From Bryobacterales bacterium (GTDB lineage Bacteria > Acidobacteriota > Terriglobia > Bryobacterales > Bryobacteraceae), in contig PLRZ01000411.1 in the NCBI GenBank assembly GCA_003164075.1, positions 1-6,936 on the forward strand: 6,936 nucleotides of DNA, written 5' to 3'. The translations under genes were made by a program, and so were the position numbers. The notes under the pieces are model-generated. The model was not told where the DNA came from and did not search any database. It worked only from the letters and a program-made list of their open reading frames with translations. Each line of letters begins with the position of its first letter. The stretch's first letter is position 1. Of the stretch, positions 1,458 through 6,936 are shown in pieces.

Positions 1458-1939
1458 ATGAGAATTACCGATTCTCGTAGCGCTCGCCTCCGGCCCCGCG
1501 TCCCATGGAGCGGATCCGCAAGATGTGCCGGCACAGTCGCCCAAGAGTACCGGCGACCAGGGCGCCGTGGTCGAACGAACCTTTTCCAGCGTCACGTTTT
1601 CGGACGATGGCACGGAGGAGATGGAACAATCCACGCGCGTTCGCATCCAATCGGAAGGAGCGGTACAGGATCATGCCGGAAGAGGAACTCTCGCAGGTAC
1701 GCACGGCAGGCGTGCCGGAACTGAAGTATCGGCACGGCGCCGCTGAATTCTTCATTCTGTTTTCCACCGCTGGAGTGGAGGATCTGCAGGCTGGGGCGCT
1801 GCGCAAGGTCTATTACGCAATGCCATTCCCGGATCAGGGGCCCGAAAAAATCGCGCGGCGCGGGATCTTGTCTCGCTCGCAATACACCACTCCGAATTGC
1901 AGCTTGACGTTTCTGCTTCCGGGGAACAGGACAAAGTGA
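1458..1939 (+). pseudogene. Remnant of a secreted DUF3857-like (transglutaminase-type) protein
   Basis: Three pieces in two shifted frames read like one eroded gene. ATG-AGA at 1458 is followed by one extra A (1464); skipping it gives a signal peptide, MRLPILVALASGPASHGA, whereas the uncorrected frame has a TGA at 1459. The same frame continues through VVERTFSSVTFSDDGTEEM and STRVRIQSEGAVQ (to about 1668), which resembles the start of the DUF3857 domain. The reading then degenerates and runs to a TGA at 1744-1746. In another frame, from about 1673 to the TGA at 1937-1939, there is a plausible C-terminus with MPFPDQGPEKIARRGILS and NCSLTFLL, like tails I recall from acidobacterial DUF3857/TPR proteins. 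Intact relatives have several hundred residues or more; only about 160 codons remain. The frames are seen; the family call rests on remembered motifs. The 1673 ATG piece could still be expressed as a short peptide. Confidence 0.55.
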
Positions 1940-3042
1940 GAGTCGCGCCCGAGTTTCTTACCGGAATCCGCGAATTGATTGCCGGCGCGCGCGCCACCGT
2001 GGCGCGTGGCGTGGATCTGGTCCAGGTCCATACCAATTTCGAAATCGGCAAGCGGATCGTTCAGGAGGAATTACGCGGCAAGGGCCGGGCCGCCTATGGG
2101 GAGGAAATCATCAAGGCGCTGGCGCACCGGCTGACGGCTGAATTCGGTAAAGGGTTCTCCCGCACCAACCTTAAGTTGATGCGGCTCTTCTATTTACAGA
2201 ACCAGAACCGAATTGGTCAGACAGTGTCTGACCAATTCAACGGTCCACAGATTGGTCAGTCGTTGACTGACCAATTGGCAATTGGCCAGTCACTGTCTGG
2301 CCAATTGGTCCCGTCGCCCCGTCCCTTCGCCTTGAGCTGGTCGCACTATGTCTTCCTCCTCGGCGCCAAGAACGCGGACGAGCGCAGTTTCTATGAGATA
2401 GAAGCCACCAACCAGAACTGGACCGTCCGCGAGCTCAAACGGCAGTTCAACTCGGGCCTATACGAGCGGCTCGCCCTGAGCCGCGACAAAGAGGGCATTC
2501 GCAGGCTCGCTCAGGAGGGCCAGATCGTCGCGAAAGCGTCCGATCTGTTCGAGGAACCGCTGGTCCTGGAATTCCTCGGCCTCGACGAGCGCAGCCGCTA
2601 TTCGGAATCCGACCTGGAATCCGCCATCATCAGCCAGATCGAGCGTTTCCTGCTGGAAATGGGCAGGGGCTTCCTCTTCGAGTCGCGCCAGAAGCGATTT
2701 ACCTTCGACGAGGACCACTTCTTCGTGGACCTGGTCTTCTACAACCGCCTGCTGCGCTGCTATGTCCTGCTCGACCTGAAAATCGGCAAGATCGCCCACC
2801 AGGATCTCGGGCAGATGCAAATGTACGTGAACTACTTCGATCGCTTCGTGAAGACCGCCGAGGAACATCCCACCGTCGGCATCCTGCTTTGCCGGCAGAA
2901 GAATAAGGCGCTGGTGGAAATCACCTTGCCCAAGGACGCCAACATCCACGCACGCGAGTATCAGCTCTACCTGCCCAGCAAAGACGAGTTGCAGCAGAAG
3001 CTTATGGAGTGGATTGGCGAGCAGGAGACTGGCGATGAGTAG
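1936..3042 (+). CDS. YhcG/DUF1016-family protein with PDDEXK nuclease domain
   Basis: The 368-residue product has the two-domain layout of the YhcG (DUF1016) family. The N-terminal helical domain, about residues 1-90, contains IRELIAGARATVARGVD, FEIGKRIVQEE and FSRTNLKLMRLFY. After a linker and SWSHY (134-138) come a second helical part and a C-terminal PDDEXK-type domain. Candidate catalytic residues are D265 (F-V-D-L-V-F-Y) and D280-L-K282, where many family members have E-x-K, followed by GQMQMYVNYFDR. Members are predicted DNA nucleases, often found near mobile or defence genes; the substrate and biological role here are unknown. The GTG at 1936 was chosen because the homology starts there, GGGGA (1921-1925) lies upstream, and GTGA overlaps the stop of the preceding remnant. 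An in-frame TTG at 1897 would add 13 non-conserved residues. The gene overlaps the next one by 8 bp. Its linker is encoded by three palindromes. Confidence 0.87.
   Translation: MRVAPEFLTGIRELIAGARATVARGVDLVQVHTNFEIGKRIVQEELRGKGRAAYGEEIIKALAHRLTAEFGKGFSRTNLKLMRLFYLQNQNRIGQTVSDQFNGPQIGQSLTDQLAIGQSLSGQLVPSPRPFALSWSHYVFLLGAKNADERSFYEIEATNQNWTVRELKRQFNSGLYERLALSRDKEGIRRLAQEGQIVAKASDLFEEPLVLEFLGLDERSRYSESDLESAIISQIERFLLEMGRGFLFESRQKRFTFDEDHFFVDLVFYNRLLRCYVLLDLKIGKIAHQDLGQMQMYVNYFDRFVKTAEEHPTVGILLCRQKNKALVEITLPKDANIHAREYQLYLPSKDELQQKLMEWIGEQETGDE
2210..2310. repeat. Three consecutive palindromes inside the YhcG-like gene
   Basis: Unit 1 has arms 2210-2223 and 2225-2238 (14 bp, 1-base centre). Unit 2 has arms 2251-2261 and 2265-2275 (11 bp, 3-base loop). 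Unit 3 has arms 2279-2289 and 2297-2307 (11 bp, 7-base loop). All arms are perfect and share the core ATTGGTCAG or ATTGGCCAG. GACCAATTGGC at 2269-2279 can also pair with 2300-2310, so alternative larger folds exist. Each unit encodes a nine-residue peptide repeat: IGQTVSDQF (residues 93-101), IGQSLTDQL (106-114) and IGQSLSGQL (116-124). They sit just before the SWSHY motif, between the N-terminal helical domain and the rest of the protein. Confidence 0.9.
3023..3027 (+). promoter_or_regulatory. Ribosome binding site that sets the panE start
   Basis: AGGAG lies 7 bases before the ATG at 3035, inside the end of the YhcG-like gene. It supports starting panE at 3035 rather than at the in-frame TTG at 3014, which would put extra residues ahead of the Rossmann strand. 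Confidence 0.7.
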
Positions 3043-3979
3043 CGGGCCGACCGTCGCCGTCGTGGGCGCGGGCGCCGTCGGATGTTATTTCGGGGGAATG
3101 CTGGCGCGGGCCGGCGTGCGCGTCACGTTGATCGGCCGCGCGCCTCATATGGAGGCGATCGCGCGCGAGGGGCTGCTGCTCGACGGCCTGCGCTTCCACG
3201 AGCGCATCCCCATCGCGGCCACTACCAGCCTGGAAGAGGGCCTGCGCGATGCCGGCGTGATTCTTTTCTGCGTGAAGACCGTGAGTACCGAAAGCGCCGC
3301 CCGCGAACTCCAGCCGTTCCTTGCGCCGGACGCCGCCATCCTCAGCTTCCAAAATGGCGTCGATAACGTCGACCGGATCCATTCCGCGATCGGTGTCCAC
3401 GCCATTCCGGCAGCGGTATATGTGGCCGCCGAGATCACCGCGCCGGGCCGCGTCACCCACACCGGACGCGGCGACCTGATCGTCGGCCACCGCGCGGCGT
3501 GGCCCCGGCAGCCCGATCTGGAGCCGCTCGCCAGCCTGTTCGAAAGCGCCGAAATCCCCTGCAAAATCTCGCCGTCGATCGAGACCGAGCTGTGGACCAA
3601 GATGGCCATGAATTGCGCCTACAACGCGGTCTCGGCGCTGACCCGCGCGCGCTACGGCCGCATGATCCAGCTTGCGCCCGTGCGTACCACGATGGAGCGC
3701 GCCATCGCGGAGACCGTGGCGGTGGCGCGCGCCGAGGGTGTGTCGTTGTCCGAATCCGCCATGATCCAGGCGGCGTACCAATTGGGTGAAAAGATGAGCG
3801 GCGCCACGTCATCCACCGCTCAGGATATTGCCCGCGGCAGGCCCACCGAAATCGATTCGCTCAACGGCTATGTGGCAAGGCGCGGCGCCGCTTTGGGAAT
3901 CGCCACGCCGGTCAGCGACACCCTGGTTGCCCTGGTCAAACTGCTGGAAGAGTCCGCCGTCAGTCGGCAATCAGGTTGA
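3035..3979 (+). CDS. panE: 2-dehydropantoate 2-reductase (ketopantoate reductase) family protein
   Basis: The 314-residue product matches the ApbA/PanE family in length and layout. Ketopantoate reductase makes D-pantoate from 2-dehydropantoate with NADPH, in the cytoplasm, for pantothenate and CoA synthesis. The N-terminal Rossmann fold shows TVAVVGAGAVG with the G-x-G-x-x-G at 11-16. By position, K81 (F-C-V-K-T), N107 (S-F-Q-N-G-V), K189 (W-T-K-M-A-M-N, the expected catalytic lysine), S260 and E272 (P-T-E-I-D-S-L-N-G) correspond to the conserved active-site residues of the E. coli enzyme. The gene begins 8 bp inside the YhcG-like gene, so the two are probably co-transcribed, and its end overlaps the opposing lipoprotein gene by 20 bp. 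Bacteria often carry several paralogues of this family, and some act on other 2-oxo acids. The family is therefore firm and the exact substrate less so. Confidence 0.88.
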   Translation: MSSGPTVAVVGAGAVGCYFGGMLARAGVRVTLIGRAPHMEAIAREGLLLDGLRFHERIPIAATTSLEEGLRDAGVILFCVKTVSTESAARELQPFLAPDAAILSFQNGVDNVDRIHSAIGVHAIPAAVYVAAEITAPGRVTHTGRGDLIVGHRAAWPRQPDLEPLASLFESAEIPCKISPSIETELWTKMAMNCAYNAVSALTRARYGRMIQLAPVRTTMERAIAETVAVARAEGVSLSESAMIQAAYQLGEKMSGATSSTAQDIARGRPTEIDSLNGYVARRGAALGIATPVSDTLVALVKLLEESAVSRQSG

Positions 3980-4664
3980 TCTGGCCGATGCCGCCCTGAA
4001 CGTCCACGTGGATGCGGACCTTGGCATTGTCATAAGCGTCGTTCACCCAGTGGTCGCCCTGTTTGCGCAGTCCTTCGGTGTGGATTTCGCCGATGCCGCC
4101 GCTGCCGGTCGCATAGATGCCGATATCGCGGGGCAGGTGAACCGTGGCTTCCCCCACGCCGCCGTGGATGTGCACGTCATAGTCGTGCTTGGGCGTGCCG
4201 CGCAGGTCCATGCGCAGTTCTCCCACGCCCATGTCCACCTCCACGCGGCGCAGCGTCAGGCTTCCGAGATCCAGGCGCGCTTCGCCGGCGCCCAGGTTCG
4301 CCACCAGTTCCAGGGGAATGTCGTTGGCTGTCTGGATATCCCAGGTGTAACTGGTCTCGCCGATGTGGGTGTGGTGGGTCGAGGGCTGGTCGATGTTGAG
4401 ATCGGCCGAGCCGCCCAGTGCGTGGTAGGTGACTTCGGGCTTCCATTGTTCCACGTTATAGGTGAAGTCGGCGCGCGCCAATTGCGCCGCCCCGCCGCGC
4501 ACTTTCACCTCGCCGGCGCCCATGCGGAGATCCAGCCGCAGACGCTCGATTCCCTTCCGCTCGAACTCGCGGAATTCGTGGCGGGTCGGTCCGCTGTGGA
4601 CCTCCACCACACAACCGGTCAGGCACAAAACCCCCAGGATGAGGGGCCAACCTCTGGCTAACAT
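3960..4664 (-). CDS. Lipoprotein with repeated G-x-G-E turns (toast-rack/LiaF-like beta fold)
   Basis: The 234-residue product starts with a short lipoprotein signal (MLARGWPLILGVLCLTGC) whose lipobox is L15-T-G-C18, so C18 should be lipidated and the protein held at a membrane facing outward. The mature part is a series of short beta strands with six repeated turns: GAGE at 49 and 125, GVGE at 146 and 169, GIGE at 190 and GIGQ at 225. They alternate with strands such as ARLDLG, ELRMDLRG and ATVHLP. This pattern resembles the adhesin-like toast-rack and LiaF C-terminal domains, which are poorly understood. The fold call is inference and the function is unknown. The start is well supported: AAGGAG (complement of 4670-4675) lies 5 bases before the ATG. 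The gene converges on panE with a 20-bp overlap and diverges from the gene at 4794. Confidence 0.8.
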   Translation of the reverse strand: MLARGWPLILGVLCLTGCVVEVHSGPTRHEFREFERKGIERLRLDLRMGAGEVKVRGGAAQLARADFTYNVEQWKPEVTYHALGGSADLNIDQPSTHHTHIGETSYTWDIQTANDIPLELVANLGAGEARLDLGSLTLRRVEVDMGVGELRMDLRGTPKHDYDVHIHGGVGEATVHLPRDIGIYATGSGGIGEIHTEGLRKQGDHWVNDAYDNAKVRIHVDVQGGIGQINLIAD

Positions 4665-5868: not shown

Positions 5869-6936
5869 TCACTTCCCGATGCAAAACGTCGAGAAGATGC
5901 GATTCAAAATGTCGTCGGCGGTGGTAGCGCCGGTGATGGCGTCGATGGGCCGTAGCGCCGCGTACAGATCCAGCAGCAACATCTCATGCGGGATGGCCGA
6001 TTCCACCGCGGCGGCCGCTTTCTCCAGGTAGGTCGCCGATTCCCTCAGCAACTGCTCGTGCCGCAAGCTGGTGATGAAGCCAGTCTCCTGTTCGAAGACG
6101 CCCTTGGGCGCAATCGCTTCCAGAATCAGCTCGCGCAGGCGCGGAATGCCCTCGCCAGTCAACGCGGAGACCGGGATGGCGGACTCCGGCGGCGGCTGGT
6201 GCGCCAAGTCGGCCTTGTTGCCGACCAGCAGGTGGCGGCCCTGCCGTTCGGCCCGGACAATGAGCGCGCGGTCCTGCTGGTCGAGGGGCTGCGAGAGATC
6301 TACCACCACCAGGGTCAGGTCGGAATCAGCCATGGCCCGATAGCTGCGTTCAATCCCCAGGCTCTCGACCAGCCCGGCCGATTCGCGTATGCCGGCGGTG
6401 TCGTAGAGCTTGACGGGGATTCCGGCGATGGCGGCGGTCTCCGATACCAGGTCGCGCGTGGTGCCGGGGATGTCGGTGACGATGGCGCGGTCCTGCTCCA
6501 GGAGGCGATTGAAGAGGCTGCTCTTGCCTACGTTGGGACGGCCGACCAGAGCCAGCGTCAGGCCTTCGCGCACCATCGCGCCGTACTGGAAGCTGGCGGC
6601 AAGCTGGCGGATGCCGGCGCGGACGGGCGCCAGGCGGCGCAGGATTTCGGCGGGCCCGGCCACGCTGACATCGTCGTCGGCGAAGTCGATCCCGGCTTCC
6701 AGAAGCGCGATCAGTTCCAGCAACTGCTCCTTCAGCGGGGCGATGCGCCGCGACACCGATCCGCCAGCCTGCTGTGCGGCGATGCGCGCCTGGTAGAGCG
6801 TGGTGGCGTCGATCAAATCGCGGACGGCTTCGGCTTGCGGAAGGTCGATCCTTCCCAGCAGGAAGGCACGCAGCGTGAATTCGCCCGGTTCGGCGAGGCG
6901 CGCGCCGGCGGCGAGGGCGCGCTCCACGGCATGGCG
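5869..6936 (-). CDS. mnmE: tRNA modification GTPase MnmE (5' end outside window)
   Basis: MnmE works with MnmG in the cytoplasm to add a carboxymethylaminomethyl (or aminomethyl) group to the wobble uridine U34 of certain tRNAs, using methylene-tetrahydrofolate and GTP hydrolysis. The visible 355 residues begin within the N-terminal folate-binding domain ([23 protein letters not shown]). They continue through the helical domain and the inserted G domain: GRPNVGKS (132-139), IPGTTRD (156-162), DTAG (179-182), NKAD (240-243) and SAL (257-259). The product ends with the family's C-terminal FCIGK, whose cysteine is functionally important. All GTPase motifs are intact. The reading frame stays open to the window edge (R-H-A-V before E-R-A-L), so the GTG at 6927 is an internal valine, not the start. 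Compared with the usual length of about 450 residues, roughly 100 N-terminal residues are missing. Confidence 0.97.

Follow-up and report, generated by a model that had tools for sequence, protein, structure and literature searches.

In-frame palindromic DNA units of DUF1016/YhcG nuclease genes as candidate binding sites of the encoded proteins

The stretch of DNA analyzed here (the window) spans 6,936 nucleotides (nt), positions 1 to 6,936 of contig PLRZ01000411.1 from a Bryobacterales bacterium (assembly GCA_003164075.1). At 1897..3042 on the plus strand it carries a gene of the DUF1016/YhcG family, a large family of nucleases of unknown function that PADLOC files as a phage-defence candidate. 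The open reading frame (ORF) matches the Pfam families PF17761 and PF06250 over their cut-offs (127.6 and 169.7 bits, respectively) and is named PDC-S02 by PADLOC (E = 1.5e-130); an alternative start may be the GTG at 1936, which matches the 368-aa form P0001. Three palindromic units, none of which is assigned to a strand, lie within this gene: unit 1 at 2210..2238 (centre 2224, 14 of 14 pairs, read as IGQTVSDQF), unit 2 at 2251..2275 (centre 2263, 11 of 12 pairs with G/T beside the centre, IGQSLTDQL) and unit 3 at 2279..2307 (centre 2293, 13 of 14 pairs with T/T three bases off the centre, IGQSLSGQL). A sequence-only reading of this DNA had described three perfect palindromes with arms of 14, 11 and 11 bp; these lengths are correct if mismatch-free arms are counted, but units 2 and 3 each contain a mismatch, leaving unit 1 as the sole perfect palindrome. 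The three peptides are as it gave them.

All three units are odd-centred, with each centre at codon position 1, and the centres are spaced 39 and 30 nt apart. The pattern AATTN3CAGACN3GTCTGN3AATT, with up to 3 mismatches allowed, has three sites in the window, namely the three units, whereas none of 200 shuffled versions of the window contained any (mean 0.00). The linker has a palindrome score of 14, compared with 8 for the remainder of the gene and 7 or less for the linker in 40 synonymous-codon shuffles, so that the recomputed arms and the shuffles both confirm that the palindromes are real. Given that synonymous-codon shuffling drops the symmetry to background, the peptide repeat is ruled out as its source.

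Relatives were sampled from 80 bacterial and archaeal loci (among the matches listed), supplemented by a Pfam search in genomes, and filtering left 147 unique DUF1016 ORFs, drawn from many phyla; as controls, 239 further ORFs were taken from the loci that carry DUF1016 ORFs. Related sequences are not independent events, so the family counts given here are not to be taken as probabilities. The best odd-centred dyad of a DUF1016 gene comprises on average 10.9 of 12 pairs, compared with 8.6 in synonymous shuffles, and 98 of the 147 ORFs have at least 11 of 12 arm pairs; the controls average 8.6 pairs, with 21 reaching 10, 4 reaching 11 and 1 reaching 12. The maximum of the gene exceeds all 100 synonymous shuffles in 78 of the 147 ORFs and is equal to or above the shuffle maximum in 116; in an earlier subset of 67, the linker palindrome outscored the rest of the gene in 61 cases and all 40 synonymous shuffles in 53. 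The centre of the best dyad falls on codon position 1 in 133 ORFs, and its median position is 32% along the ORF. The recurrence in other DUF1016 proteins that the sequence-only reading had mentioned is thus borne out: bacterial and archaeal genes have an in-frame dyad that matches in position and codon phase, and the phenomenon is wider than that reading supposed. Its contention that the DNA symmetry goes beyond what the peptide needs is true across the family, although not for every gene, and for the family as a whole the comparison of homologues revealed neither chance-level symmetry nor a fixed number of units. These results suggest that in many DUF1016 genes the DNA itself, besides the encoded protein, is under selection. 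A divergent subfamily carries a single palindrome (score 8-16) without any peptide repeat; the repeat is therefore not a core feature, and the arrays probably represent expansions of one core unit. Divergent subfamilies with unrelated letters likewise retain one unit at the same position in the gene. Loss of the catalytic motif was considered as a correlate of weak palindromes, but no obvious link emerged, short of a formal test: 21 of the 23 ORFs with 9 or fewer pairs match a simple motif pattern, and two ORFs with 10 pairs lack this pattern.

What is conserved is the symmetry and not the letters. The cores of the units include CAGAC, CAGCA, CAACA, CAGAA and GAGAC, and the units translate to peptides as unlike as IGQTVSDQ, ISEKPSRKL, AILQEPLAKL and PNLDALRQDL. 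Arm letters vary from one gene to the next, and even among the units of a single gene, yet they covary. When each pair was scored on units selected by the remaining pairs, with the expectation derived from the column make-up, the positions of the variable triplet (k = 7, 8 and 9) were paired in 0.94, 0.94 and 0.85 of the genes, against 0.36, 0.32 and 0.35 expected. In the CAGAC class, 69 of 103 units have perfectly complementary triplets (mean 4.8 and maximum 13 under shuffling among units), and 96 of 103 units have C or G at the centre. Complementarity persists within single genes, in 46 of 75 units, whereas 2000 within-gene shuffles averaged 29.2 and never exceeded 40. Core identity is 0.80 within a gene and 0.52 between genes. 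This pattern suggests that a coding sequence can drift in its letters and in its peptide and still be subject to a constraint on the symmetry of its DNA.

In the bacterial and archaeal genomes scanned, few copies of the unit lie outside the DUF1016 gene; in viral contigs the restriction is weaker. In 15 DUF1016-bearing genomes, 34 of the 37 places that match the motif with up to 2 mismatches lie in DUF1016 ORFs or their fragments, and two of these encode proteins with as little as about 30% and 41% identity to that of the window. Of the other three places, one is an isolated unit near an AbiEi-like gene, one an isolated unit near a Fic gene and one part of a repeat-like stretch that lacks DUF1016. 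A repeat-like stretch that is partly motif-like and is not a DUF1016 gene lies in a Methanomicrobiales genome (L104, 1380-1620). Among 61 genomes of one order, the motif (up to 1 mismatch) was found in two, both times in a DUF1016 gene, while 15 of the 61 have PF06250 over the cut-off, which implies that the CAGAC letters characterize only one class of units. Of 596 genomes (349 Pseudomonadota and 247 Acidobacteriota), four carry the exact motif, at one site each and always in a DUF1016 ORF; the centre genome G001 is one of the four, and the genome of the window itself lies outside the scanned set. By comparison, a PF06250 match is present in 27 of 150 Pseudomonadota. A high-copy dispersed element is ruled out by these whole-genome scans. 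Extragenic copies are nevertheless real, albeit rare in the genomes scanned, and units of the same type are present in noncoding DNA beside the gene: 3' of the gene in Escherichia coli, about 5 nt past the stop codon in locus L216 and centred 49 nt upstream in locus L118. Within 300 nt upstream of the 147 genes there are 6 palindromes (0.137 per kb vs 0.054 further out) and downstream of them 7 (0.162 per kb vs 0.071 further out), most of which do not share the core of the adjacent gene. Operator-like upstream units were rejected as a general rule, with only 6 within 300 nt of 147 genes.

The turnover of the units can be followed in E. coli, where 4417 of 5426 genomes have a match to yhcG, which in 3310 of them covers 80% or more of the gene. 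Among 14 complete alleles read, 10 have three units, three have two and carry a different first triplet, and the O157:H7 allele, having lost 78 nt (two units), has one; the number of units thus changes between strains of one species, as the sequence-only reading had thought possible. The two-unit allele of ECO8855 differs from that of K-12 mainly in about nt 200-410, that is, in the upstream helix and the array, and is 90-99% identical to it in 100-nt windows elsewhere. In K-12 itself, the conserved W after the array is replaced by R and the first unit is decayed. The idea that the palindromes serve to swap domains was considered and discarded: the segment that differs in E. coli has no clean junction. 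An extragenic unit lies between yhcG and nanQ (L081, 6955-7015, and other E. coli alleles). Of 15 alleles, 12 have CTG/CAG arms at this unit, 3 have CTC/GAG and none has a one-sided form; 3' units with identical arms differ as if inverted at the centre. The second intragenic unit of one allele has CTC/GAG arms, as if it had been copied from a 3' unit. Among the 60 matches listed, 10 end at nt 406 and 2 begin at nt 385, both positions being inside unit 3. Three such alleles (L193, L194 and L200) were read: two are truncated ahead of a transposase gene and one is joined to insertion sequence (IS) IS1. The protein P0070 joins the window sequence from unit 1 onward to a foreign N-terminus and may be a chimera, although it comes from a 1442-base contig and may be an assembly artefact.

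The sequence-only reading had placed the array between a DNA-binding and a nuclease domain. It lies instead inside the DUF1016_N match (residues 24-191; 1966..2469, plus strand), predicted to be similar to the ParB helix-turn-helix (HTH) domain, while the match to the YhcG_C nuclease domain of the PD-(D/E)XK type begins only at residue 217 (residues 217-369; 2545..3003, plus strand). The suggestion that the array mainly sets the spacing of the two domains is accordingly not supported, one predicted domain being split by the palindrome linker. Directly 5' of the array, a predicted helix (residues 89-101; 2161..2199, plus strand) is a candidate for the DNA-recognition helix, and the region matching it differs jointly with the palindromes in the divergent E. 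coli allele. The nuclease motif reads DLVFYN...LLDLK; among 62 sequences D278 is invariant and D293, L294 and K295 are each conserved in at least 90%. As the first AlphaFold2 (AF2) model, from which the helix was predicted, was poor (mean predicted local distance difference test score, pLDDT, of 60), a compact relative was also modelled. EndoMS/NucS is the best Protein Data Bank (PDB) match of both models, and the C-terminal domain, as modelled, resembles this nuclease; the split N-terminal domain may resemble the ParB DNA-binding domain, on weak to moderate evidence. A sequence search of PDB yielded no convincing relative.

The observations to be accounted for are the dyad symmetry, the covariation at the DNA level, the fixed place and phase, the low abundance outside the gene in the scanned genomes and the turnover of units. 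The explanation that we favour, at slightly less than even odds (about 0.45), is that the palindromes are cognate dyad cis-sites in double-stranded DNA, kept in frame as candidate binding sites of the encoded nuclease. Under this scenario, the N-terminal domain, with its predicted ParB-like HTH, would bind the inverted repeat as a dimer, at a site predicted to consist of a fairly gene-specific core (CAGAC...GTCTG in the class of the window), a variable symmetric triplet and AATT ends. By occupying its own gene, the protein would either regulate its own expression, as the sequence-only reading had considered, or stay tethered to the locus that encodes it. One unit would be ancestral, arrays would arise through in-frame duplication, loss and exchange of units, and a centre at codon position 1 would let units sit in frame in either orientation. 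A ParB-like dimer on an inverted repeat would explain the dyad, the DNA nature of the signal, the core shared within a gene and the position at the own locus.

Several observations weigh against this explanation. Duplication alone could yield the higher core identity within genes, and dimer binding leaves the triplets that differ within one gene, yet remain complementary, unexplained. In a scan limited to codon phase 1 beyond nt 180, 23 of the 147 DUF1016 ORFs have 9 or fewer pairs. Furthermore, the exact motif is found outside DUF1016 in 8 of 12 viral contigs, in four of which the unit was read as lying beside RhuM, AbiEi, SocA/PemK or AAA_21 genes, and two more viral contigs, found with a related pattern, likewise carry it outside DUF1016. 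The stretches examined in these contigs (L206-L209, L211-L214, L218 and L219) contain no DUF1016 ORF.

With more reserve than for the binding sites themselves, we put forward the broader proposition of a self-addressed nuclease, in which the same DNA would be both linker-coding sequence and the symmetric recognition site or substrate of the enzyme, and the letters of the site and of the recognition domain would turn over together by cassette exchange, in bacteria and archaea alike. If true, this would represent a new class of gene, with a protein and its DNA target written on top of each other. The palindrome gives a concrete handle on the DNA target of a DUF1016 nuclease, for which E. coli supplies natural variants.

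Among the alternatives, the one that fares best, although we regard it as unlikely, is that the palindrome, extruded as a cruciform or as a hairpin of one strand, serves as a structural substrate for the encoded structure-specific nuclease, such that pairing and not sequence would be selected, and cleavage followed by repair would drive the turnover and inversion of units. Different but complementary triplets within a gene are better explained by such a substrate, or by the copying of whole units, than by a ParB-like dimer. Arms of 12-14 bp are short for cruciform extrusion in vivo, and the greater likeness of cores within than between genes indicates that sequence may matter as well. The preponderance of C or G at the centre, the apparent inversion of the E. 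coli 3' units and the EndoMS/NucS-like nuclease domain are all in favour of a structural substrate, as is the relationship of YhcG to YraN-like Holliday junction resolvases given in the available part of Kosinski et al. (2005; PMC1189080).

Less probable still is a selfish palindromic element, akin to the repetitive extragenic palindromic (REP) sequences, that settled in the linker where in-frame insertion is harmless. The extragenic copies, both in viral contigs and at three places in the 15 genomes, fit such an element, and so do the E. coli truncation and IS1 junction inside unit 3, given that REPs serve as IS targets (PMC1525189, as far as its accessible text goes). Its copy number would be tiny, with the few exact sites in the genomes scanned falling in DUF1016 ORFs; moreover, place and phase are fixed, and divergent subfamilies with unrelated letters have one unit at the same place.

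We consider it improbable that the units act as hairpins in mRNA, through translation pausing, an RNase site or autogenous RNA binding. Judging from the sequence, stems of 11-14 bp could form in RNA, and the variable arms covary. However, among mismatches at wobble positions, would-be G-U pairs are not in excess (48 of 514 cells, compared with 75 of 899 for A-C; units were selected by Watson-Crick pairs, so that both kinds are penalized equally). Would-be G-U is thus avoided as strongly as A-C, which disfavours a hairpin in mRNA, and the centre-adjacent pair, which would be in the loop, covaries too (three GC strata gave odds ratios of 5.8, 4.3 and 4.3). Units are present in noncoding DNA too, and a scan of six sources against Rfam placed no family at the units, its sole match being a riboswitch elsewhere. 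A structured cis-regulatory RNA was rejected for the same two reasons, the lack of G-U tolerance and of a curated family. Equally doubtful is that the palindromes have no function per se and that template switching, known to cause mutations in quasi-palindromes (PMC3820800, in the part available), keeps restoring perfect arms: it agrees with the whole-unit changes between unchanged flanks in E. coli, but the symmetry is absent from the 239 control ORFs of the same loci, and a mutational process should not keep to one gene family and one codon phase.

Among known systems, ParB-parS shares with DUF1016 the combination of a ParB-like DNA-binding domain (predicted, in the latter case) with a short palindrome at the locus that encodes it, and parS sites can lie within a parB gene. 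Unlike in ParB-parS, the DUF1016 domain is joined to a PD-(D/E)XK nuclease, and its site is longer, lies in frame, often occurs in several copies and varies in its letters from gene to gene; Pfam detects no ParA or CTP-binding domain in the ORF, although no dedicated search was made. REPs with their TnpA-REP (RAYT) proteins also pair short palindromes with the gene of a DNA-processing protein and have IS junctions at palindromes, whereas the DUF1016 units are intragenic, in frame and rare elsewhere in the scanned genomes. RAYT is an HuH enzyme (PMC8266576, available part), in contrast to the PD-(D/E)XK fold of DUF1016; there is no Pfam match to an HuH domain in the window ORF, and the high genomic copy number typical of REPtrons is not seen at one exact site in each of four genomes. 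PARCEL (DUF285), in which palindromic DNA encodes a protein repeat in many lineages, is similar in this respect; the accessible part of Roske et al. (2010; PMC2996958) describes imperfect palindromes that vary in sequence, length and phasing, in ORFs with differing flanks, in contrast to the one place and phase, single nuclease family and covarying arms of the DUF1016 palindrome. The 25-residue amphipathic repeat of the DUF285 type has no Pfam match in the ORF, with its unit spacing of 39 and 30 nt. Rickettsia palindromic elements are read in frame within protein genes as well but differ from the DUF1016 units in being about 100-150 nt long and inserted in intergenic regions, RNAs and various coding sequences (PMC4316617, in the text available). 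No account of palindromes in the DUF1016 family was found in the literature searched, outside of which most subscription journals lie; the accessible parts of PMC7967276 and PMC1913061 do not describe them.

The neighbours of the DUF1016 gene in the window are ordinary: a ketopantoate reductase gene (3014-3979) lies directly 3' of it, a toast-rack/LiaF-like protein is encoded at 3960-4664, and MnmE at 5869-6936.
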